From positions 62,001-126,000 of the forward strand of contig NZ_JAATOW010000012.1 in assembly GCF_011806405.1 (NCBI RefSeq): a stretch of 64,000 nucleotides of DNA, in the 5' to 3' direction. Positions 25,515 through 36,299 of this stretch are shown in pieces. Below the pieces are notes generated by a model that saw nothing but the letters and a program-made list of their open reading frames with translations, had not been told where the DNA came from and searched no databases. Each line of letters opens with the position of its first letter. Position 1 is the stretch's first letter. The stretch is from Pseudooceanicola sp. HF7 (GTDB lineage Bacteria > Pseudomonadota > Alphaproteobacteria > Rhodobacterales > Rhodobacteraceae). Position numbers and translations under genes: made by a program.

Positions 25515-26344
25515 GCCAGCGCCGCCGCCCGCAGGCCCGGCGTGACCTCAGGCTTGGCGCCGAACCAGCGCTCGAAGCCCGGCACGGCCTGGTGCAGCAA
25601 CATGCCCAGCCCGTCGACCACCGTGCAGCCGGCCTCACCGGCAGCGCGCAGCAGGGGGGTCGTCAGCGGGTTATAGACGATATCCGTCACCACCTGCTCC
25701 GGGCGCAGCCCGTCCAGGTTCACCTTCAGGTCCGGTTTGCCCAACATGCCAAGAGAGGTGGTATTCACCACCGTCGCGGCCTCTGTGACCATGCGCCCGG
25801 CATGGACCCATTCGACGACCTTCACGCGATTGCCGAAATCCTGTTGCAGACGCTCCGCCCGCAGCTTGGTGCGGTTGGCGATCTGCACCTCCGGCACGCC
25901 TGCATCCAGCAGCGCCACCACGACCGCACGGGCCGCACCACCGGCCCCCAGCACCGCCGCCGGCCCCGCCGCGGCCTCCCAGCCGGGGGCATTCTGGCGC
26001 AGGTTCTCGATGAAGCCGTAGCCATCGGTGTTATCTGCATGGAAAGAGCCATCTTCCCGGAAGATCAGCGTGTTCGCCGCCCCGATCAGACTGGCCCTGT
26101 CCGTCACGTGAGAGGCCAGTTCAAGCACGGCTTCCTTGTGCGGGAGGGTGACATTGATTCCGGCGAAACCCAACTTGGGCAGGGTGCGCAGCGCCTCTTC
26201 CAGATCCTCGGGACGGACCTCCATGGGGATGTAATGCCCCGGCAGCCCCAGTTCCTTCAGCCAGTAGCCATGCACCTGCGGAGACCGGCTATGACCGATG
26301 GGACAGCCGATCACGCCGGCCAGTGGGATCTTTTCGGAACTCAT
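25511..26344 (-). CDS. aroE: Shikimate dehydrogenase (NADP+)
   Basis: AroE reduces 3-dehydroshikimate in the aromatic amino acid pathway. The 277-residue product shows the shikimate-binding GCPIGHSRSPQVH near the N-terminus and the catalytic lysine in NVTLPHKEAV. The NADP-binding loop is GAGGAARAV, followed by the NRT segment. It sits between maf and coaE with 4-base overlaps on both sides. Confidence 0.95.
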   Translation of the reverse strand: MSSEKIPLAGVIGCPIGHSRSPQVHGYWLKELGLPGHYIPMEVRPEDLEEALRTLPKLGFAGINVTLPHKEAVLELASHVTDRASLIGAANTLIFREDGSFHADNTDGYGFIENLRQNAPGWEAAAGPAAVLGAGGAARAVVVALLDAGVPEVQIANRTKLRAERLQQDFGNRVKVVEWVHAGRMVTEAATVVNTTSLGMLGKPDLKVNLDGLRPEQVVTDIVYNPLTTPLLRAAGEAGCTVVDGLGMLLHQAVPGFERWFGAKPEVTPGLRAAALA

Positions 26345-26940
26345 GCCTCCAGGGCTCCTCTCAGGATCAGGTAATCAAGTAACTCCAGCAACGGCAAACC
26401 CAGGATGGCGAAGTAATCGCCCTCGATCCGCGAAAACAGCCGGCTGCCCTCTGCCTCGACCTGGTATGCACCGCAGGACCAGGAAATATCCGGCCAGTTC
26501 CGCGCCACGTAGCTTTCCAGGTAGGCCGGAGAGAGCTCTCTCATGGTCATCTTCACTTCGCTCAGCTTGCGCCAGACCGGGCGTCCACCCTCATGCACGA
26601 CCGCCGCGGTGTAAAGGGAATGCCGCTTGCCGGACAGCGCGCGGATCTGTTCCATGGCCTGATCGGGGGTTTCCGGCTTGGAATAGATGCGCCCTTCGCA
26701 TGCCAACACCTGGTCGCAACCGATGGTCAGCGCCTCAGGATGCTTCATGCCGACCCGTTCCGATTTCAGCTGGGCCAGGGCATCGGCGATGTTCCGTGCG
26801 CTTTCCCCCTCTGCCTGGAGCGCCTCTCGCACCATGTCTTCATCGACGCGGGGCTTGGCGATTTCAAAGCTCACGCCGGCGCGTTTGAGCAGTTCGGCAC
26901 GGATCGCAGAACCGGAGGCAAGAAGGATCGGAAGGCCCAT
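26341..26940 (-). CDS. maf: Maf-family nucleotide pyrophosphatase
   Basis: Maf proteins hydrolyse canonical and modified nucleoside triphosphates. The 199-residue product has the family start LLASGSAIRAELLKRAGVSF and the active-site region TIGCDQVLACEGRIYSKPE (in many relatives GADTVV). The start codon at 26940 directly borders the proposed replication origin. It heads the leftward unit maf-aroE-coaE-dnaQ. Whether it is the dTTP/UTP or the 7-methyl-GTP subtype is not clear from reading. Confidence 0.9.
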   Translation of the reverse strand: MGLPILLASGSAIRAELLKRAGVSFEIAKPRVDEDMVREALQAEGESARNIADALAQLKSERVGMKHPEALTIGCDQVLACEGRIYSKPETPDQAMEQIRALSGKRHSLYTAAVVHEGGRPVWRKLSEVKMTMRELSPAYLESYVARNWPDISWSCGAYQVEAEGSRLFSRIEGDYFAILGLPLLELLDYLILRGALEA

Positions 26941-27033
26941 TGGGGATAAACCTGTTCAGAAACACTGATGAACTCGCCGGTTCTTCTGGGAAAAAAAGGG
27001 GCTGGACGCAACCTTTGACCGGAGGCTGTGCGC

Positions 27034-27138
27034 GACTCACCCGATTCCTCCCCTGAGTCGCCGGATCTGTCCCCCGTGGATAAGGACAAGTGGAAAACTT
27101 GTTCCTACCCGATTCTCCCGGATTCGATCCTCAGAATC
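27034..27138. promoter_or_regulatory. Cluster of six GANTC (CcrM-type methylation) sites
   Basis: GACTC 27034-27038, GATTC 27043-27047, GAGTC 27055-27059, GATTC 27111-27115, GATTC 27121-27125, GAATC 27134-27138. GANTC is the target of the cell-cycle methyltransferase CcrM in alphaproteobacteria. Random sequence would give about one site in 256 bases, and fewer in GC-rich DNA. Confidence 0.75.
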
Positions 27139-27147
27139 AGTCCACAG

Positions 27148-27156
27148 TTATCCACA
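27148..27156 (+). promoter_or_regulatory. Perfect DnaA box
   Basis: TTATCCACA, identical to the consensus. It is flanked by weaker copies at 27138-27146 and 27160-27168 spaced 10-12 bases apart, about one helical turn, and sits at the edge of the AT-rich segment. Confidence 0.8.
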
Positions 27157-27377
27157 GAAATATCCATATGTAACTATTTGGTTTTATGCGCAAATATGAA
27201 CTGGGCTCAATTTCCTCCACCGTTTTGCCCTAGTTATCCCATAGCTTTCCCCCATGTGGAAAACCCGGTGGATATAACAAGGATCCACAGGAAGAGAGCC
27301 TCCTACAACCCACAACAATCTTTCTATAAAAAGGATTTGAAGTAAGAGGCTGAGAAAGACCTGAAAGGACCGCCCCC

Positions 27378-27824
27378 ATGCTGGATTTCCTGTCCCTGGC
27401 TTATCCCTGGGTGAAGACGCTCCATATCGTCTCCGTGGTCGCCTGGATGGCGGGGCTGTTCTACCTGCCCAGATTGTTCGTCTATCACGCTGAGAGGGGC
27501 TCCCAGGCGGAGGTAGACACCCTTTTCAAGGTGATGGAGTCCCGGCTTCTGCGTGCGATCATGAATCCGGCGATGATCGCCACCTGGATTTTCGGTCTTT
27601 GCCTGGTCTTCACCCCTGGAATCGTCGACTGGTCCATGGTCTGGCCCTGGACGAAAGCCGCCTCAGTGCTGGCCATGACCTGGTTCCATCACTGGCTGGG
27701 CTTGCGCCGCAAGGATTTCGAACGTGGTGAGAATACTCTGCCCGGTCGCCGTTACCGAATGATGAACGAACTGCCGACCTTGCTGCTTCTGGTCATCGTC
27801 GCCTCTGTCGTGGTCAAGTTCTAG
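27378..27824 (+). CDS. hemJ: Protoporphyrinogen IX oxidase HemJ
   Basis: HemJ is the membrane enzyme that oxidises protoporphyrinogen IX in many alphaproteobacteria and cyanobacteria. The 148-residue product has about four membrane helices, with the conserved H16 (WVKTLHIVSVVAWMAGLFYLPRLFVYH) and later FHHWLGLRRKDFERGEN. Length and motif are typical. An AAAGGACC ribosome site precedes the ATG. It is the first rightward gene after the proposed origin and lies just before rho. Confidence 0.92.
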   Translation: MLDFLSLAYPWVKTLHIVSVVAWMAGLFYLPRLFVYHAERGSQAEVDTLFKVMESRLLRAIMNPAMIATWIFGLCLVFTPGIVDWSMVWPWTKAASVLAMTWFHHWLGLRRKDFERGENTLPGRRYRMMNELPTLLLLVIVASVVVKF

Positions 27825-27873
27825 GAACCGGGCAGGGCGGACGGCGGCTTTCGCGCCCTTTCCCTTGGCGGGA

Positions 27874-27902
27874 TTGACTCGTTGGGGGGCAAGCCTTATC
27901 TA
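27874..27902 (+). promoter_or_regulatory. Probable sigma-70 promoter of rho
   Basis: TTGACT (27874-27879), 17 bases, TATCTA (27897-27902). Transcription would begin near 27909 and leave an untranslated leader of about 88 bases before the rho ATG. Confidence 0.55.
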
Positions 27903-27996
27903 CGCGATCAAGCCGCCCGTCCGGGCAAAGCTGTTTTCCCATGACAGATGACTGACTGCGTGCCCCGAAAGGGCCGGTCAAAGGATCATTTTCCCG

Positions 27997-29280
27997 ATGA
28001 ACGATATCGCCACCGACAACCGCCTGAACCTGTCTGATCTGAAGGCGAAGAGCCCCAAGGATCTGCTGGCCATGGCAGAGGAGCTCGAGATCGAGAACGC
28101 CTCGACCATGCGCAAGGGCGAGATGATGTTCCAGATCCTGCGCGAAATGGCAGATGATGACTGGCTCATCGGTGGGGACGGCGTTCTGGAAGTGCTTCAG
28201 GATGGCTTCGGCTTCCTGCGCTCGCCCGAGGCAAACTACCTGCCGGGTCCCGATGACATCTATGTCTCTCCCGACATGATCCGCCAATGGTCGCTGCGCA
28301 CCGGCGATACGGTCGAAGGCCTGATGAAGGCGCCGGATGAGAACGAGCGTTACTTCGCGCTGACCTCCGTGCAGATGATCAACTTCGAGGATCCCGAAAA
28401 GGCGCGTCACAAGATCGCCTTCGACAACCTCACGCCGCTCTATCCCGACGAGCGCCTGAAGATGGAGATCGAGGATCCGACGATCCGCGACCGTTCCGCG
28501 CGTATCATCGACCTGGTCGTGCCCATCGGGAAGGGGCAGCGGTCCCTGATCGTGGCGCCGCCGCGGACCGGTAAGACGGTTCTGCTGCAGAACATCGCCA
28601 ATTCGATCGAGACCAATCACCCCGAATGCTACCTGATCGTCCTGCTGATCGACGAACGCCCCGAAGAGGTGACCGACATGCAGCGTTCCGTGAAGGGCGA
28701 GGTGATCTCCTCCACCTTCGACGAACCTGCAACGCGCCACGTTGCCGTGTCTGAAATGGTGATCGAAAAGGCCAAGCGCCTGGTCGAACATAAACGAGAT
28801 GTTGTTATCCTTCTCGACTCTATCACAAGACTTGGTAGGGCCTTCAACACGGTCGTCCCGTCCTCCGGCAAGGTTCTGACCGGTGGTGTGGATGCAAATG
28901 CGCTGCAACGGCCCAAGCGGTTCTTCGGTGCGGCCCGGAATATCGAAGAGGGCGGCTCGCTCACGATCATTGCTACCGCGCTGATCGACACCGGCTCCCG
29001 GATGGACGAAGTGATCTTCGAAGAATTCAAGGGCACCGGTAACTCCGAAATCGTCCTGGATCGCAAGATCGCGGACAAGCGCGTCTACCCGGCGATGGAC
29101 ATCCTCAAATCCGGCACCCGGAAAGAGGATCTTCTGGTCGACAAGGTCGATCTGCAGAAGACCTTTGTCCTGCGCCGGATCCTGAACCCGATGGGCACCA
29201 CCGATGCGATCGAGTTCCTTATCTCCAAGTTGAAGCAGACGAAGACAAACGCCGACTTCTTCGATTCCATGAATACCTGA
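27997..29280 (+). CDS. rho: Transcription termination factor Rho
   Basis: The hexameric RNA helicase that terminates transcription. The 427-residue product has the N-terminal Rho domain ([20 protein letters not shown]), the cold-shock-like RNA-binding fold with [23 protein letters not shown], and the ATPase core. The core shows Walker [12 protein letters not shown] near residues 186-196 and [16 protein letters not shown] after it. Length matches the common form without insertions. It is separated from hemJ by a promoter-bearing gap, and mnmE starts 28 bases after it. Confidence 0.97.
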
Positions 29281-29308
29281 CGGGGGCTCCGGCTCCGGGA
29301 TTTACGCT

Positions 29309-30592
29309 ATGGACACGATCTTTGCCCTTGCCTCGGCCCCCGGCCGGGCAGGGGTTTCCGTTTTAAGGATCTCGGGCCCAGGTGCGCTGGCAGCGCTCGG
29401 GGCTTTCGGCGTTTCCAACCCTGTTCCACGTGAAACCATGCTGCGGATCCTGCGCGATGACGCAGGCGACGTGCTTGACCAGGCATTGGTGCTCTATTTC
29501 GACGGGCCGCGAAGCTTTACCGGCGAAGATGTCGTTGAACTCCACCTGCACGGTAGCCCGGCCATTGTCACCTCAACCCTGCGAATTCTCGGCACGCTTC
29601 CGGGCGTCCGTATGGCCGACGCCGGCGAATTTACTCGTCGCGCGCTTGAGAACGGCAAGATGGACCTGGCCCAGGTCGAAGGTCTGGCCGATCTGATCGA
29701 TTCAGAGACAGAAGCGCAACGTCGCCAGGCGCAGCGCGTCTTCTCCGGCAAGCTCGGTTCGCTCGTCCAGGAATGGCGCAAGGATCTGATCCGTGCGGCC
29801 GCGCTGCTGGAAGCGGTGATTGATTTCGTCGACGAAGACGTCCCGGTGGATGTCCGGCCAGAAGTCCGTAACCTCTTGGAAAAAATGGATAAAAGCCTGA
29901 CTTCTCAGGCGCGCGGGGCGGCCGTTGCCGAACGTGTCCGCCATGGTTTCGAAGTGGCGATCCTAGGCGCACCCAATGCCGGCAAGTCGACCCTGTTGAA
30001 TTACCTGGCGGGGCGTGACGCCGCGATCACCTCTGCCGTGGCGGGGACAACCCGCGACGTGATCGAGGTCCGGATGGATCTGAACGGCCTGCCTGTAACC
30101 CTGTTGGATACTGCCGGCCTGCGCGAAACCGAGGATGAGGTCGAAGCAATCGGTATTTCCCGCGCAAGGGAAAGAGCAACCCAAGCCGACCTGCGGCTTT
30201 ACCTTCTGGAGCCCGGGGAAACCCCGCAGTTCGAGCTGGACGGGGATGACATCATTCTTGCGGGCAAGGCAGATCTGACCGGCGATGCAAATGGCATCAG
30301 TGGTGAGACAGGGCAGGGTGTTCCGCAACTGATCGAACGGATCACCGAAGTCTTCGCAAAGCGCACGGCCATGGTCGCCACCGCGACACGGGAACGGCAC
30401 CAACATGCCATCCTGCGCGCGATCCAGGATCTGACACAGGCGCGGGCCATGTTGGACGATCCCAGATATAGCGAAGATCTGATCGCAGAAGAGCTTCGCT
30501 CGGCTATTCGGGCCCTTGATTCTCTGGTAGGCATCGTCGATGTCGAATCCCTGCTGGATGAGATCTTCTCCAGCTTCTGCATCGGCAAATAG
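29309..30592 (+). CDS. mnmE: tRNA uridine-5-carboxymethylaminomethyl modification GTPase MnmE
   Basis: MnmE with MnmG builds the cmnm5 modification at wobble uridine 34. The 427-residue product has the N-terminal formyl-THF-binding domain ([21 protein letters not shown]). The helical domain contains the G domain, with [12 protein letters not shown] near 220, the TTRD switch and [13 protein letters not shown]. The C-terminal CIGK ends the protein, with C424 the conserved cysteine. A near-perfect parS palindrome lies in its coding sequence at 29422-29437. Only two bases separate its stop from the mnmG start. Confidence 0.96.
29422..29437. other. parS-type site 1, inside mnmE
   Basis: TGTTCCACGTGAAACC, one base from the common parS consensus TGTTNCACGTGAAACA. 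It lies in codons 38-43 of mnmE, about 4.4 kb before parB. Confidence 0.8.
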
Positions 30593-30594
30593 GA

Positions 30595-32472
30595 GTGTTT
30601 CACGTGAAACATGCGCATTTCGATGTGGTCGTCGTCGGTGGTGGCCATGCGGGCTGCGATGCAGCCCATGCTTCAGCACGCGTCGGGGCCAAAACAGCCC
30701 TAGTGACGCTAAAAATGGACGGAATCGGCGTGATGTCCTGCAATCCGGCCATTGGTGGGCTCGGAAAAGGCCATCTTGTCCGCGAGATCGACGCCCTTGA
30801 CGGTGTCATGGGCCGCGTGGCTGACAAGGCCGGTATCCAGTTCCGCTTGCTGAACCGACGGAAGGGCCCTGCAGTGCAGGGACCCCGCGCACAGGCCGAT
30901 CGAGCGATCTACCGGCGCGAAATGCTCGCTGAAATGACATCTTTCCCCGGTTTGAGCGTCATTGAAGGCGAAGTTGTCGACTTTTTGATGGATGGCGCGG
31001 CCGTTTGCGGCCTGATTTTGGCGGACGGGTCCGAAATTCGCGCCAAATCCGTTGTTCTGACTACGGGAACCTTCCTGCGCGGTATCATTCACATTGGCGA
31101 TCAGCACTATTCCGGCGGCCGCATGGGCGATAATGCGGCCAACAAGCTCGGCGAGCGCATGGATGCCTTTAACCTGCCGCTTGGCCGGTTGAAAACGGGC
31201 ACGCCACCGCGCCTGGATGGGCGAACCATTGACTGGAGCAAGCTTGAAGAGCAGCCCGGCGATGAAGATCCCGTGCTTTTCTCTTTCCTTTCCAATGACT
31301 TGCATGCAAAGCAAGTCTCTTGCGGGATCACCCACACGAACGAGAAAACGCACCAGATCATTCGCGATAACCTCTCCCGATCAGCGATGTATGGCGGTCA
31401 TATCGACGGGGTAGGCCCCCGATATTGCCCCTCCATCGAGGATAAGGTGGTCCGTTTCGCGGATAAAAGCTCTCATCAGGTCTTCTTGGAGCCGGAGGGT
31501 CTTGAAGATCACACGATCTACCCGAACGGCATTTCCACGTCCCTACCTGCGGAGGTGCAGGAGGATTACGTGAGATCGATGGTCGGACTGGAAAATGTCA
31601 CCATTCTGCAGCCCGGATACGCCATTGAGTACGATTACGTCGACCCCAGAGCGCTTGATCTACGTCTTGGCCTTCGGGATGTGCCCGGTCTTTTCCTGGC
31701 CGGACAGATCAACGGCACAACGGGATATGAAGAGGCAGCGGCACAAGGTCTAGTAGCTGGCCTCAATGCGGCACACCAGTCCTTGGGGTTGGATCCGGTG
31801 ACCTTCAGCCGGTCTGACTCCTATATCGGCGTCATGATCGACGATCTGACCACCCGCGGTGTGTCGGAACCCTACCGGATGTTCACCTCTCGGGCAGAGT
31901 ACCGGCTGTCTCTTCGCGCGGATAACGCCGACCAGAGGCTGACACCGAAAGGTCTGGAGGTCGGCCTAGTTGGAGAGGCACGCAAGGCGGCCTTTGGTCA
32001 TAAGATGGAAGAGCTGGCCAAGGGACGGGACCTGCTGGAATCCCGGAGCGTTTCCCCGAAGGTTCTCAACGAGAACGGCATCAAGGTAGGGGAGGACGGC
32101 AAGAAGCGCTCTCTTTACCAAGTATTGGCCTTCCCGGACGTTTCTGTGGCAGATCTTGTGGCTATCGAGCCGGAGCTGGCCGACCTTTCGACCGCGACGC
32201 AGGAACAATTGCAGAAAGATGCGCTCTACGCGACCTATATCCTTCGACAGGAGCAGGACGCTGCGGCCCTTCGGAAGGATGAGGCGCGCGGCATTCCCTC
32301 GGATTTTGACTATCATGCGCTGGACGGGCTCTCAAATGAGCTGAAAATGAAGCTTTTGTCCGTCCGCCCATCCAATTTGGCCCAAGCTGGCCGGATCGAG
32401 GGGATGACTCCCGCTGCTTTGGCGTTGATCTTGGCGCGTTTGAACCGGGAAAGACGGGATAAATCGGCGTGA
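30595..32472 (+). CDS. mnmG: tRNA uridine-5-carboxymethylaminomethyl modification enzyme MnmG (GidA)
   Basis: The FAD-dependent partner of MnmE (625 residues). The dinucleotide-binding motif is [21 protein letters not shown] (residues 11-31). Further landmarks are [22 protein letters not shown] and [20 protein letters not shown]. The GTG start at 30595 follows AGGAG. The first five codons, MFHVK, are the parS palindrome itself (30596-30611); a start at the GTG at 30604 is the alternative. The stop overlaps rsmG by 3 bases. Confidence 0.96.
30596..30611. other. parS site 2, at the mnmG start
   Basis: TGTTTCACGTGAAACA, a perfect 16-base palindrome identical to the parS consensus. It overlaps the initiation codon of mnmG, so ParB bound here would cover the start of the gene. 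Confidence 0.93.
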
Positions 32473-33086
32473 GCAGGAATCTGATTGTCAAAGATGTTTC
32501 ACGTGAAACATTCGAGCGCCTCGAAATCTATGCCGGTCTACTCGAAAAGTGGAATCCGAAGATCAATCTGGTCTCCAAATCCACGATTCCAGCCCTTTGG
32601 GACCGCCATATCCTCGATTCTGCGCAGATCTACGCCTTGGCTGGGCAATTTGATCACTGGGTAGACCTTGGAAGCGGGGGAGGGTTCCCTGGGCTGGTTG
32701 CAGCCATCTATGGCGCGGAGCGCTCACCGGAGGCTTCTTTCACACTGATCGAGTCAGATCAGAGGAAATGCGCTTTCCTGCGGACTGTCGCGCGCGAAAC
32801 CGGGCTAAATGTGACGATTCTGGCCAAAAGAGTCGAGGAAGTCGCCCCTCAGCAGGCCAATATCCTGTCCGCACGGGCACTTGCCTCGCTTGATATGCTG
32901 CTTGGCTTCGCGGAACGGCATCTCTCCGCCGATGGAATGGCGCTTTTTCCCAAGGGTGCGCGCTGGAAGGCCGAAGTTGATGAGGCAGAGACCCATTGGC
33001 GCTTTCACTGGGAAGAAGTCAGGAGTAGAACGGAAGACGAAGCCGTGATCCTGAAAATCGGAGGAATCGCCCGTGTCGCAGCCTGA
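32469..33086 (+). CDS. rsmG: 16S rRNA (guanine-527-N7)-methyltransferase RsmG (GidB)
   Basis: RsmG methylates G527 of 16S rRNA. The 205-residue product shows the AdoMet-binding [16 protein letters not shown] near residue 66, plus [13 protein letters not shown] and WDRHILDS in the N-terminal part. The GTG at 32469 overlaps the mnmG stop (GTGA). Codons 10-15 (VSRET) are encoded by a perfect parS palindrome. It overlaps parA by 14 bases. The order mnmG-rsmG-parA-parB is the classic origin-proximal cluster. Confidence 0.95.
32495..32510. other. parS site 3, inside rsmG
   Basis: TGTTTCACGTGAAACA, identical to site 2 and a perfect palindrome. It lies in the early rsmG codons about 560 bases before parA. 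Confidence 0.93.
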
Positions 33087-33882
33087 AAATTTGCGTGATC
33101 CCCGGATTGTTGCAGTGGCCAACCAGAAGGGTGGCGTCGGCAAGACAACGACCGCGATCAACCTTGGCGCCGGGCTTGTTGAGCAGGGCAAGAAGGTCCT
33201 GGTTGTCGACCTGGACCCACAGGGGAATGCCTCTACCGGGCTGGGTGTGGCGCCGGAAGACCGTGAATACACGACTTATGACCTTCTGCTGGACGAAATC
33301 GACCCTTCGCTGGTCATTCAGGCCACGCAAATCAAGAATTTGTCGATTGTTCCGGCTAATGTGGACCTCTCGTCTGCTGATCTGGAGCTTGCATCGAACG
33401 ATAATCGCCTCCAGATCTTGCGTAGCAAGCTTCGTAGCCCACAAATGGTTGCGTTGGGCTTTGATTACATCCTGATTGACTGCCCGCCGTCGCTGAACCT
33501 GCTGACCGTGAACGCCATGGTCGCCGCGAACTCCGTTCTGGTGCCGCTGCAAAGCGAGTTTTTCGCGCTTGAGGGCCTTTCCCAGCTGATGCTGACCATC
33601 CGGGAAGTGCGCCAAAGCGCCAATCCGGACCTGCGGATCGAAGGCATTGTGCTGACCATGTATGATGCCCGCAACAACCTGAGCCAGCAGGTAGAGGCAG
33701 ATGCCCGCGAAAACCTGGGCGACCTGGTGTTCCGGACCATCGTGCCACGCAACGTCCGGGTCAGCGAAGCGCCGTCTTTCGCCATTCCCGTCCTTGATTA
33801 CGATCCCCAATCCAAGGGGGCGATGGCCTATCGCTCCCTTGCAGAGGAGTTCCTGAAGAAGCATGAGCCAGCAATTGCCTGA
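33073..33882 (+). CDS. parA: Chromosome-partitioning ATPase ParA
   Basis: ParA is the DNA-binding ATPase that moves the ParB-parS complex and so segregates newly replicated origins. The 269-residue product shows the deviant Walker A KGGVGKTTT at residues 19-27, VVDLDPQGNASTGLGV, and YILIDCPPSLNLLTVNAM. There is no N-terminal helix-turn-helix, so it is the short chromosomal type rather than a plasmid ParA. It starts with GTG inside the rsmG end and overlaps parB by 20 bases. Confidence 0.95.
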   Translation: MSQPENLRDPRIVAVANQKGGVGKTTTAINLGAGLVEQGKKVLVVDLDPQGNASTGLGVAPEDREYTTYDLLLDEIDPSLVIQATQIKNLSIVPANVDLSSADLELASNDNRLQILRSKLRSPQMVALGFDYILIDCPPSLNLLTVNAMVAANSVLVPLQSEFFALEGLSQLMLTIREVRQSANPDLRIEGIVLTMYDARNNLSQQVEADARENLGDLVFRTIVPRNVRVSEAPSFAIPVLDYDPQSKGAMAYRSLAEEFLKKHEPAIA

Positions 33883-34798
33883 GAGTGACGACACCCGCCT
33901 CGAGAAGAAGAAGAAACCGCGCGGTCTTGGGCGTGGCCTTTCGGCCTTGATGGCTGATGTGGCGCCTGAAGAGGAAGTGCAGGGAAATAATGCGCGTCGG
34001 CCCGACATGTTGGTGCCGATTGAGTCGATCATACCAAATCCTGATCAGCCACGGCGCAGTTTCACCCCGGAACAACTGACCGAACTGGCCGATTCCATTC
34101 GCGAAAAGGGCGTTATCCAGCCCCTGATCGTGCGTCCCAAGCCGGGGCAGGAGGGTCTGTACGAGATTGTCGCCGGTGAACGCCGCTGGCGGGCCTCTCA
34201 GATGGCGCAACTGCACGAATTGCCGGTCATCGTGCGTGATTTCGACGATCTGGAAGTGCTCGAAGTCGCGATTATCGAGAATATTCAGCGGGCTGATCTC
34301 AATCCGATCGAGGAAGCCGCCGGTTTCCGTCAATTGATGGACAAATTCGGCCATACGCAGGAAAAACTGGCCCAGGCGCTTGGCAAGAGCCGCAGCCATA
34401 TTGCGAACCTCATGCGTCTTCTGCAGCTGCCCGAAGAAATTCGTGAGATGCTGGCAGATGGCAACCTGACGGCCGGTCACGCACGCGCCCTGATCACCGC
34501 CGATGAGCCGGTGAAACTGGCGCGCCGCGTGGTGATGGATGGTCTGTCCGTGCGGGCCACCGAACAGCTGGTCAAGAAGCAGGGCGTGGAGCCTGCTGCG
34601 CCGCGTGCCCGCTCCGCGGGTCGCAGTGGGGACAAGGACGCCGATACCCGCGCGCTCGAAGCGGATCTTTCCGCGGCGCTCGGCATGGCGGTAGAGATCG
34701 ATCATGCGCCTGGTGGAGAGTCCGGCCGTATCTCGATTTCTTATAAGTCATTGGAATCATTGGACGAATTGTGCCAGATCCTTAGCGCGGCCCGCTAG
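33863..34798 (+). CDS. parB: Chromosome-partitioning protein ParB
   Basis: ParB is the parS-binding CTP-switch protein (311 residues). The N-terminal KKKPRGLGRGLSALM is the ParA-interacting segment. The CTP-binding region shows NPDQPRRSF and GERRWRA near residue 105. The helix-turn-helix includes LAQALGKSRSHIANLMRLLQLP. The C-terminal dimer domain ends SLDELCQILSAAR. Three parS sites lie 1.4 to 4.4 kb upstream in the same operon. Its 3' end overlaps the convergent ybaN-type gene by 17 bases. Confidence 0.96.
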   Translation: MSQQLPESDDTRLEKKKKPRGLGRGLSALMADVAPEEEVQGNNARRPDMLVPIESIIPNPDQPRRSFTPEQLTELADSIREKGVIQPLIVRPKPGQEGLYEIVAGERRWRASQMAQLHELPVIVRDFDDLEVLEVAIIENIQRADLNPIEEAAGFRQLMDKFGHTQEKLAQALGKSRSHIANLMRLLQLPEEIREMLADGNLTAGHARALITADEPVKLARRVVMDGLSVRATEQLVKKQGVEPAAPRARSAGRSGDKDADTRALEADLSAALGMAVEIDHAPGGESGRISISYKSLESLDELCQILSAAR

Positions 34799-35141
34799 GT
34801 CGCGTCCAAAGGAAAAGCAGCACGAGAGAGAGCGTTCCGCCCTGGATCACCAGGAGTTTCGCACTCAGCTCCATCAGAATGGACAGTGAATAGACCGCTA
34901 CGATCATGATCGTGGCGAGTCTTTTCGCTTTCAATGAGATTGCGCCATTTTCCTGCCAGTCCCGGATCGCGGGACCAAAGCGGCGATGCTCCACCAGCCA
35001 GACATGCAGCCTGTCGTTCGACCGGGCAAAGGAAAAAGCGGCCAGAAGCATGAAGGGGACGGTGGGCAGCAGGGGCAGGACGACGCCGATGATGCCCAAC
35101 CCAACGCAGATCAGCCCGAATATCAGCCAGAGGATGCGCAT
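34782..35141 (-). CDS. YbaN/DUF454-family inner-membrane protein
   Basis: The 119-residue protein has an N-terminal membrane segment (ILWLIFGLICVGLGIIGVVLPLLPTVPFMLLAAFSFARS), the RFGPAIRDWQENGAISLKAKRLA cytoplasmic loop typical of DUF454, and two C-terminal helices. Function is not known. It lies 3 bases after hemW on the same strand and runs 17 bases into the end of parB on the other strand, so the two transcripts would overlap. Confidence 0.88.
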   Translation of the reverse strand: MRILWLIFGLICVGLGIIGVVLPLLPTVPFMLLAAFSFARSNDRLHVWLVEHRRFGPAIRDWQENGAISLKAKRLATIMIVAVYSLSILMELSAKLLVIQGGTLSLVLLFLWTRPSGPR

Positions 35142-35144
35142 CGC

Positions 35145-36299
35145 TCACTCCAGAAGCTTGTCGAGCACCGCGTTCAACACCATGCGGCCCTGATCGGTCA
35201 CCGCCAGCAAGTCATTGTTCTGCTTCAGCAAATCCATCTCCACCAATTCGTCCATCCGGGCCTGGCAGAGGGCTGAGCCATTCAGGTCCGCGAAGCGAGA
35301 GAGGGCGATTCCCTCTTTCAGCCGCAAACCCATCAATAGATATTCCTGCGCTTGCTCGGGTCCAGTCAATGGATCCCGCAACTTGTCGGCATTTCCCGCT
35401 TCGGCTCGGTGCAGCCAGTCACCCGGCATCCGGTAGGCCTCTGTTGCGTGGCGCCGGCCGTCCAGCGTGACACGGCCATGGGCCCCCGGACCAACGCCGA
35501 TGTAGTCGCCATAGCGCCAGTAAAGCACGTTGTGGCGGGATCGGGCGCCATCGCGGGCATGGTTGGAGACCTCGTAGCAATCGAGCCCGGCGGCGGCGGT
35601 CACCTCCTGCGTCAGCTCGTACATATCAGCGGCAAGGTCTTGATCCGGAAGGCCTTTCAGCCCGCCACGCTTGTAGCGATCGCCAAAGGCGGTGCCGTCC
35701 TCAACGGTCAGCTGGTACAGCGACAGGTGATCGACGGCCAGGTCAAGCGCGCGGGTCAGCTCGGCTTCCCACTCGGGCAGGGTCTGGTCCTGACGGGCAT
35801 AGATCAGGTCGAAACTGACGCGCTCGAACTGGTTTCGCGCGATATCGAAGGCCGCCATGGCCTCTTTCACGCTGTGCAGTCGCCCCAGGCGCCGCAGATC
35901 GCGGTCATTCATCGCCTGGAAGCCCATGGAGACACGGTTCACACCGGCCATGGCATAGCCGCGAAAGCGATCCGCCTCGATAGAGCCGGGGTTGGCCTCC
36001 AGCGTGACTTCGGCCTCATTGGCCTGGGGCCATAAGCGCCTGATTGTATTGAGTATTCCGTCAACCGTCTCTGGCAGCATCAGGCTGGGCGTGCCGCCCC
36101 CAAAGAAGACGGAGCCAACAACCCGCCCGGGCGTCAGCGCTGCGTAGCGTTCCAGTTCAGAGACATAGGACTTCAGCCAGCGGGCCTGGTCCACGTTTGC
36201 CGTGACATGCGAATTGAAGTCGCAATAGGGGCATTTGGACTCGCAGAAGGGCCAGTGCACATAGATGCCGAACCCGGCGTTCTGCCAGTCTTCGCTCAA
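35145..36299 (-). CDS. hemW: Radical SAM heme chaperone HemW
   Basis: HemW, long annotated as an oxygen-independent coproporphyrinogen oxidase, binds heme and is thought to deliver it to apoproteins. The 384-residue product shows the radical-SAM CxxxCxxC as C19, C23 and C26 (FCESKCPYCDF). VFFGGGTPSLM and LEANPGSIEADRFRGYAMAGVNRVSMGFQ follow. The C-terminal HemN-like domain is present. It follows rdgB by 9 bases in the rph-rdgB-hemW row. Confidence 0.93.
   Translation of the reverse strand: MSEDWQNAGFGIYVHWPFCESKCPYCDFNSHVTANVDQARWLKSYVSELERYAALTPGRVVGSVFFGGGTPSLMLPETVDGILNTIRRLWPQANEAEVTLEANPGSIEADRFRGYAMAGVNRVSMGFQAMNDRDLRRLGRLHSVKEAMAAFDIARNQFERVSFDLIYARQDQTLPEWEAELTRALDLAVDHLSLYQLTVEDGTAFGDRYKRGGLKGLPDQDLAADMYELTQEVTAAAGLDCYEVSNHARDGARSRHNVLYWRYGDYIGVGPGAHGRVTLDGRRHATEAYRMPGDWLHRAEAGNADKLRDPLTGPEQAQEYLLMGLRLKEGIALSRFADLNGSALCQARMDELVEMDLLKQNNDLLAVTDQGRMVLNAVLDKLLE

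Follow-up and report, generated by a model that had tools for sequence, protein, structure and literature searches.

The window analysed here is a 64,000-nucleotide stretch of contig C2 (130.6 kb) in a draft genome of 74 contigs from a Pseudooceanicola-like Rhodobacteraceae bacterium, and it carries a 437-base intergenic gap from which maf and hemJ diverge. The gap and its immediate flanks are laid out as follows.

26941..27377, no strand: predicted chromosomal oriC (maf/hemJ intergenic region), called from GC, DnaA boxes and divergent flanks
26341..26940, minus strand: maf, left flank (Pfam PF02545)
27378..27824, plus strand: hemJ (UPF0093), right flank (Pfam PF03653)

An earlier note on this DNA had described an A/T-rich gap of 437 bases at 26941-27377, genes pointing away from it on both sides and parAB to its right, and these observations are borne out: Maf starts at 26940 on the minus strand and HemJ at 27378 on the plus strand, the gene strands diverge, GC is 0.487 in the gap vs 0.644 across the window, and the parA-like and parB proteins are backed by Pfam. 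The surroundings of the gap have a GC of about 0.58 vs 0.62–0.67 leftward, forming a local GC minimum. The lower GC extends over the whole oriC-hemJ-rho-mnmEG-rsmG-parAB block (window 26000-36000), which ranges from 0.57 to 0.61 beside 0.62–0.67 in the left part of the window, and the sample at the corresponding block of a related genome, G015, has a GC of 0.547.

Motif scanning reveals nine DnaA boxes with at most two mismatches inside the gap, comprising one perfect box, three with one mismatch and five with two.

26941..26949, minus strand: DnaA box, one mismatch (TTATCCCCA), abutting the maf start; left end kept in relatives
27075..27083, minus strand: DnaA box, one mismatch (TTATCCACG)
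27089..27097, minus strand: DnaA-like box, two mismatches
27148..27156, plus strand: perfect DnaA box TTATCCACA
27160..27168, plus strand: DnaA-like box, two mismatches
27184..27192, plus strand: DnaA-like box, two mismatches
27255..27263, minus strand: DnaA box, one mismatch (TTTTCCACA), within the conserved right-hand block
27267..27275, minus strand: DnaA-like box, two mismatches
27281..27289, plus strand: DnaA-like box, two mismatches (GGATCCACA), position conserved in relatives

The perfect box at 27148-27156 and the three 8-of-9 boxes reported earlier are thus recovered, but the 7-of-9 boxes number five, so that the earlier count of three was an undercount. The signal lies in the clustering of these boxes rather than in their number, because genome-wide counts are not enriched: perfect boxes number 13 vs 13 for the reversed pattern, and boxes with at most one mismatch 203 vs 262. 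Likewise, the window total of seven boxes with at most one mismatch is unexceptional (shuffle mean 3.7, with 7 of 100 shuffles reaching 7); four of these seven sit within the 437-base gap. Across the 130.6-kb contig, scanned as 2604 overlapping 437-bp windows in steps of 50, the maximum falls on the windows over the gap, with nine boxes at no more than two mismatches, and the best count elsewhere is four. Beyond the contig, 14 other genome stretches were compared, namely the 12 other perfect-box sites and two other box groups, and these hold at most three boxes with up to one mismatch per 450 bp, vs four in the gap. A denser cluster at another locus, named in the earlier note as grounds for abandoning the origin reading, is therefore absent from the contig and from these 14 stretches, the comparison covering, for groups of one-mismatch boxes without a perfect box, the matches listed on contigs up to C24.

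The best of the 14 is a group near 34.85 kb of contig C11 (L186 1453-1585; G000 C11 34852-34984), with three boxes at up to one mismatch and seven at up to two per 450 bp. It precedes a gene that appears, from its translation, to be nrdJ-like and to encode a B12-dependent ribonucleotide reductase. On contig C73, a perfect DnaA box and a one-mismatch box (L184 1445-1557; G000 C73 from 94944) lie between two genes that are presumably, again from their translations, dnaB-like (helicase) and pyrE-like. Since the group before the nrdJ-like gene indicates that such groups can mark non-origin genes, the maf/hemJ gap could be read as a mere DnaA-regulated divergent promoter region for its two flanking genes; this reading leaves the polarity reversal at chromosome scale, the near-fixed parS pair and the conserved gene cluster, all described below, unaccounted for, and is extremely improbable.

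Comparison loci were drawn from a HemJ scan of named genomes, the best 80 of 568 being retained; their titles are nearly all Rhodobacteraceae or Rhodobacterales, and L117 (titled Rhizobium) and L121 (titled Flavobacteriia) are probably mislabelled MAG contigs. As the loci were picked by HemJ similarity, their common hemJ is a selection effect, but the adjoining maf is not. In all 80, maf lies divergently beside hemJ, although the loci are not independent and some gaps are near-identical (for example, those of L114 and L117). Leftward, aroE follows in 79, coaE in 77 and dnaQ in 77 of these 80 loci; rightward, rho is present in 79, mnmE in 79, mnmG in 75 and rsmG in 74, with some loci cut short.

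Together with the window, these best 80 of 568 loci provide 81 gaps; in the relatives, the start of a gap was set by prolonging the BLAST match with Maf as far as the protein's first residue. The 81 gaps measure 389–458 bases, have a median GC of 0.481 vs 0.598 for the loci, and contain 208 boxes at no more than one mismatch, whereas 10 rounds of shuffling average 9.9 and the reversed pattern matches once. At least one such box occurs in 77 of the 81; L097, L130, L133 and L134 have none. The DNA sequence of the region diverges quickly: a 561-bp query matched 23 of 59 other genomes, in many cases only at the hemJ end. Alignment resolves two conserved ends: on the left, box-like sequence adjoins the start of maf; on the right, about 35–125 bases before hemJ, a box block leads into a stretch resembling ctACaac-AtCAtcatctTTt and then a run rich in T.

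The AT-rich stretch noted earlier beside the perfect box is present, the weakest 40-mer of the gap beginning at 27148. Over the 81 gaps, the weakest 40-mer is centred 25–75 bases upstream of hemJ in 55 and 150–250 bases upstream in 26, the window's gap, with its 40-mer at 27148, belonging to the second class. Because the positions fall into two classes, two candidate unwinding elements are named.

27148..27187, no strand: candidate unwinding element A, the weakest 40-mer of the window's gap; poorly conserved in relatives
27291..27345, no strand: candidate unwinding element B, a conserved block then an A/T-rich run, beside conserved boxes

The block of element B next to hemJ may also be the hemJ promoter. 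The gap hence combines two features of DnaA-dependent origins, an above-chance intergenic box cluster and an AT-rich element beside the boxes.

The partition elements of the window lie on the hemJ side. The parS 16-mer TGTTTCACGTGAAACA occurs perfectly at two places in the window, both within coding sequence, and the parAB genes follow, giving the locus the nearby parAB expected of a Rhodobacteraceae-type oriC.

30596..30611, no strand: perfect parS 16-mer in the mnmG reading frame at its 5' end, 3.2 kb right of the gap
32495..32510, no strand: perfect parS 16-mer in the rsmG reading frame close to its 5' end, 5.1 kb right of the gap
33073..33882, plus strand: parA (Pfam), starting 5.7 kb from hemJ
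33863..34798, plus strand: parB (Pfam)

No further perfect parS exists in the genome beyond those at 30596 and 32495. The arrangement recurs in all seven genomes searched, each having exactly two perfect parS sites, which lie toward rho at about 3.1–3.2 and 5.0–5.1 kb from hemJ; G010 and G015 each carry one additional site with a mismatch. Among the best 80 of 568 loci, 70 show at least one perfect parS within the fetched flanks. A parS-like site with two mismatches also lies inside mnmE (window 29422-29437).

Strand asymmetry at chromosome scale was assessed in relatives from 20 stretches of 20 kb per chromosome contig, using the single-contig genomes G015 and G024 and the 3.73-Mb contig C1 of G011. 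The polarity of KOPS (GGGNAGGG) and the mean GC skew flip across the locus in all three sampled chromosomes. Specifically, forward/reverse KOPS counts on the maf and hemJ sides are 5/40 and 46/3 in G015, 9/42 and 44/7 in G024, and 6/66 and 40/10 in G011, and the mean skew on the same two sides is −0.032 and 0.047, −0.024 and 0.046, and −0.031 and 0.038, respectively. Individual samples are less uniform: the maf side is negative in skew in 7 of 10 (G015), 6 of 10 (G024) and 11 of 11 (G011) of them, and the hemJ side is positive in 8 of 9, 9 of 9 and 9 of 9. Irregularities are found in G024, where the three maf-side samples closest to the locus are slightly positive in skew, the sample at +227 kb has KOPS of 3/4, and the far switch is early by one sample, the −1.71 Mb sample showing right-arm polarity. 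In G015 the far switch lies between the 0.87-Mb and 1.09-Mb samples; the antipode of the locus is at about 1.03 Mb. Of the 20 samples, the one with the locus has the biggest box group in both G015 (five boxes per 450 bp) and G024 (six boxes per 450 bp), and the G011 locus has five boxes in about 350 bp.

At finer scale the two signals behave differently from genome to genome. The GC-skew change point coincides with the locus in two of four genomes (G015, offset 0; G011, −0.3 kb) and lies off it in the other two (own contig, −26.65 kb; G001, −54.75 kb); the cumulative GC skew of the window's own contig has no minimum at the locus. Placing the change at the locus attains 100% of the best skew fit in G015, 97% in G011, 85% in the own contig and 39% in G001, and the best fit is reached by 1, 4, 46 and 0 of 2000 shuffles of 10-kb blocks, respectively. 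Near the locus, KOPS forward/reverse counts are clean on the hemJ side (own 17/1, G015 22/1, G011 7/2, G001 6/0) and mixed on the maf side (own 15/17, G015 22/14, G011 21/27, G001 10/20), and the best KOPS split is displaced leftward, to −54.5 kb in the own contig, −76.5 kb in G015, −31.0 kb in G011 and −6.1 kb in G001. The best split places 45 of 50 KOPS correctly in the own contig and 56 of 59 in G015, whereas a split at the locus places 34 of 50 and 36 of 59, respectively.

These displacements, above all the KOPS splits of the own contig and G015 and the skew change points of the own contig and G001, are what would favour an origin some 27–76 kb to the left, at the local KOPS/GC-skew switch, with the maf/hemJ cluster as a relic or accessory DnaA site. 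Such a placement is very unlikely: 437-bp windows of the own contig away from the gap contain at most four boxes with up to two mismatches, G015 has no box with up to one mismatch between −95.5 and −53.4 kb, the offsets differ among genomes, the GC skew changes at the locus itself in G015 and G011, and the parS sites remain with maf/hemJ. Moreover, the −79 to −49 kb stretch of G015 is right-arm skew embedded in left-arm skew, and synteny between G015 and the own contig breaks in that region, so that part of the leftward KOPS offset looks like the result of rearrangement.

A separate observation concerns the direction of these motifs. On the maf side, KOPS point mostly toward the predicted origin for tens of kilobases, against the GC skew, in the own contig C2 (over roughly the 53 kb left of the locus, mostly outside the window and reaching to about window 27000; 15 forward vs 4 reverse motifs there), in G015 and partly in G011, though not in G001. 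It is a speculative and improbable generalization that, in this genus, the site of initiation and the polarity that orients FtsK are decoupled close to the origin, with KOPS mostly origin-ward over roughly 30–75 kb left of oriC; if true, it would imply either that the origin has shifted recently or that KOPS near oriC are under a selection independent of replication direction. This left-arm offset is the single point that a specialist might re-examine. An additional marker uses 53 polar octamers derived from the G015 samples other than the one with the origin, and it places the own-contig minimum at window 27371; as its trough is shallow (−187 to −213 from about −2 to 38 kb), little weight is given to it.

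Several other origin-linked signals were sought. The CtrA site TTAA-N7-TTAA has no match with up to one mismatch in the window's gap, and exact sites occur in 9 of the 81 gaps (window plus best 80 of 568 loci); an exact IHF site is likewise absent from the window's gap, where one IHF-like sequence with a mismatch is found. GANTC is not enriched in the same 81 gaps (264 occurrences, where shuffles average 298.8), a dif site sought with an E. coli-type core at up to three mismatches was not found in any of three genomes, and Rfam at gathering threshold gives no match within the window. A conserved trinucleotide-like repeat of the relatives does not appear to fit the DnaA-trio, and no trio is claimed. 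The dnaA gene lies on contig C3, the window being on C2, and the 4 kb around dnaA contain no box with up to one mismatch. The hemE gene is on contig C47 and does not flank the gap, and COG1806, taken to correspond to Pfam DUF299/Kinase-PPPase, has no match by that family.

Collectively, the DnaA-box cluster, the AT-richness, the conserved divergent flanks, the parS pair and the polarity in three relatives support the earlier note's proposal, and the maf/hemJ gap is predicted from sequence, with a probability of roughly 0.9, to be the DnaA-dependent chromosomal oriC of this bacterium. The leftward offsets of GC skew and KOPS on the own contig, by 27 and 54 kb, keep it a prediction. Following established knowledge of origins, DnaA-ATP would bind the strong boxes at 27148, 27255, 27075 and 26941 and then spread across the weak ones, melting an AT-rich stretch at 27148-27187 or at 27291-27345, the latter being more conserved in relatives; DnaB would be loaded, and a pair of forks would set off bidirectionally. 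The newly copied origin would then be moved by ParB attached to the parS pair, which lies 3.2 and 5.1 kb rightward. The analysis thereby fixes a likely replication start for a draft genome and supplies a testable core of nine boxes, two candidate unwinding elements and two parS sites. A reading from sequence alone hit a sound locus, and the general view of origins is unchanged.

Caulobacter crescentus Cori (PMC1914354) resembles the gap in being an AT-rich intergenic region of more than 400 bp with DnaA boxes, but it is described there as flanked by hemE and COG1806 and as carrying DnaA sites, five CtrA sites and an IHF site, whereas the gap has neither those flanks nor a CtrA site at up to one mismatch. 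The Hyphomonas neptunium origin (PMC6650430) was mapped near hemE by marker frequency, with parAB about 7 kb away; as at the gap, parAB and two perfect parS lie within a few kilobases of the origin, but the hemE flank and the experimental mapping set it apart from the predicted oriC described here. In Hyphomonas, according to the same paper, no clear origin emerged from GC skew, DnaA sites or the position of dnaA, which shows that such in-silico signs can mislead. In Azorhizobium caulinodans (PMC2443382), a conserved gene cluster, a GC-skew shift and GGGNAGGG polarity were likewise combined; KOPS confirmed the position of the predicted origin there, whereas at maf/hemJ KOPS fits at chromosome scale in relatives and is offset locally. 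PMC13342612 reports that KOPS switches at dif and warns that some DoriC origins are wrong.

Closer relatives provide the nearest parallels. PMC8116508 names parAB as a good anchor for ori and places dnaA near ori in Rhodobacterales among others, and PMC6315104 places the two Rhodobacter sphaeroides origins through cumulative GC skew and partition loci. PMC6699656 applied Ori-Finder to 101 Rhodobacteraceae and curated the predictions by proximity to parAB, by a local minimum in GC and by the minimum of GC disparity; for a further eight strains it could place no oriC. Adjacency to maf is the pattern that PMC4793288 reports from DoriC as conserved in Rhodobacteraceae, and the gap shows it. The Ketogulonicigenium vulgare Hbe602 origin and the DoriC entries given there are, like the gap, intergenic, located beside maf and predicted with DnaA boxes; no difference from the Hbe602 origin, itself predicted rather than mapped, is seen in that account. 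An oriC beside maf in Rhodobacteraceae is thus already published (PMC4793288), and the maf/hemJ gap, as a predicted oriC, is a good example of it, real but ordinary.
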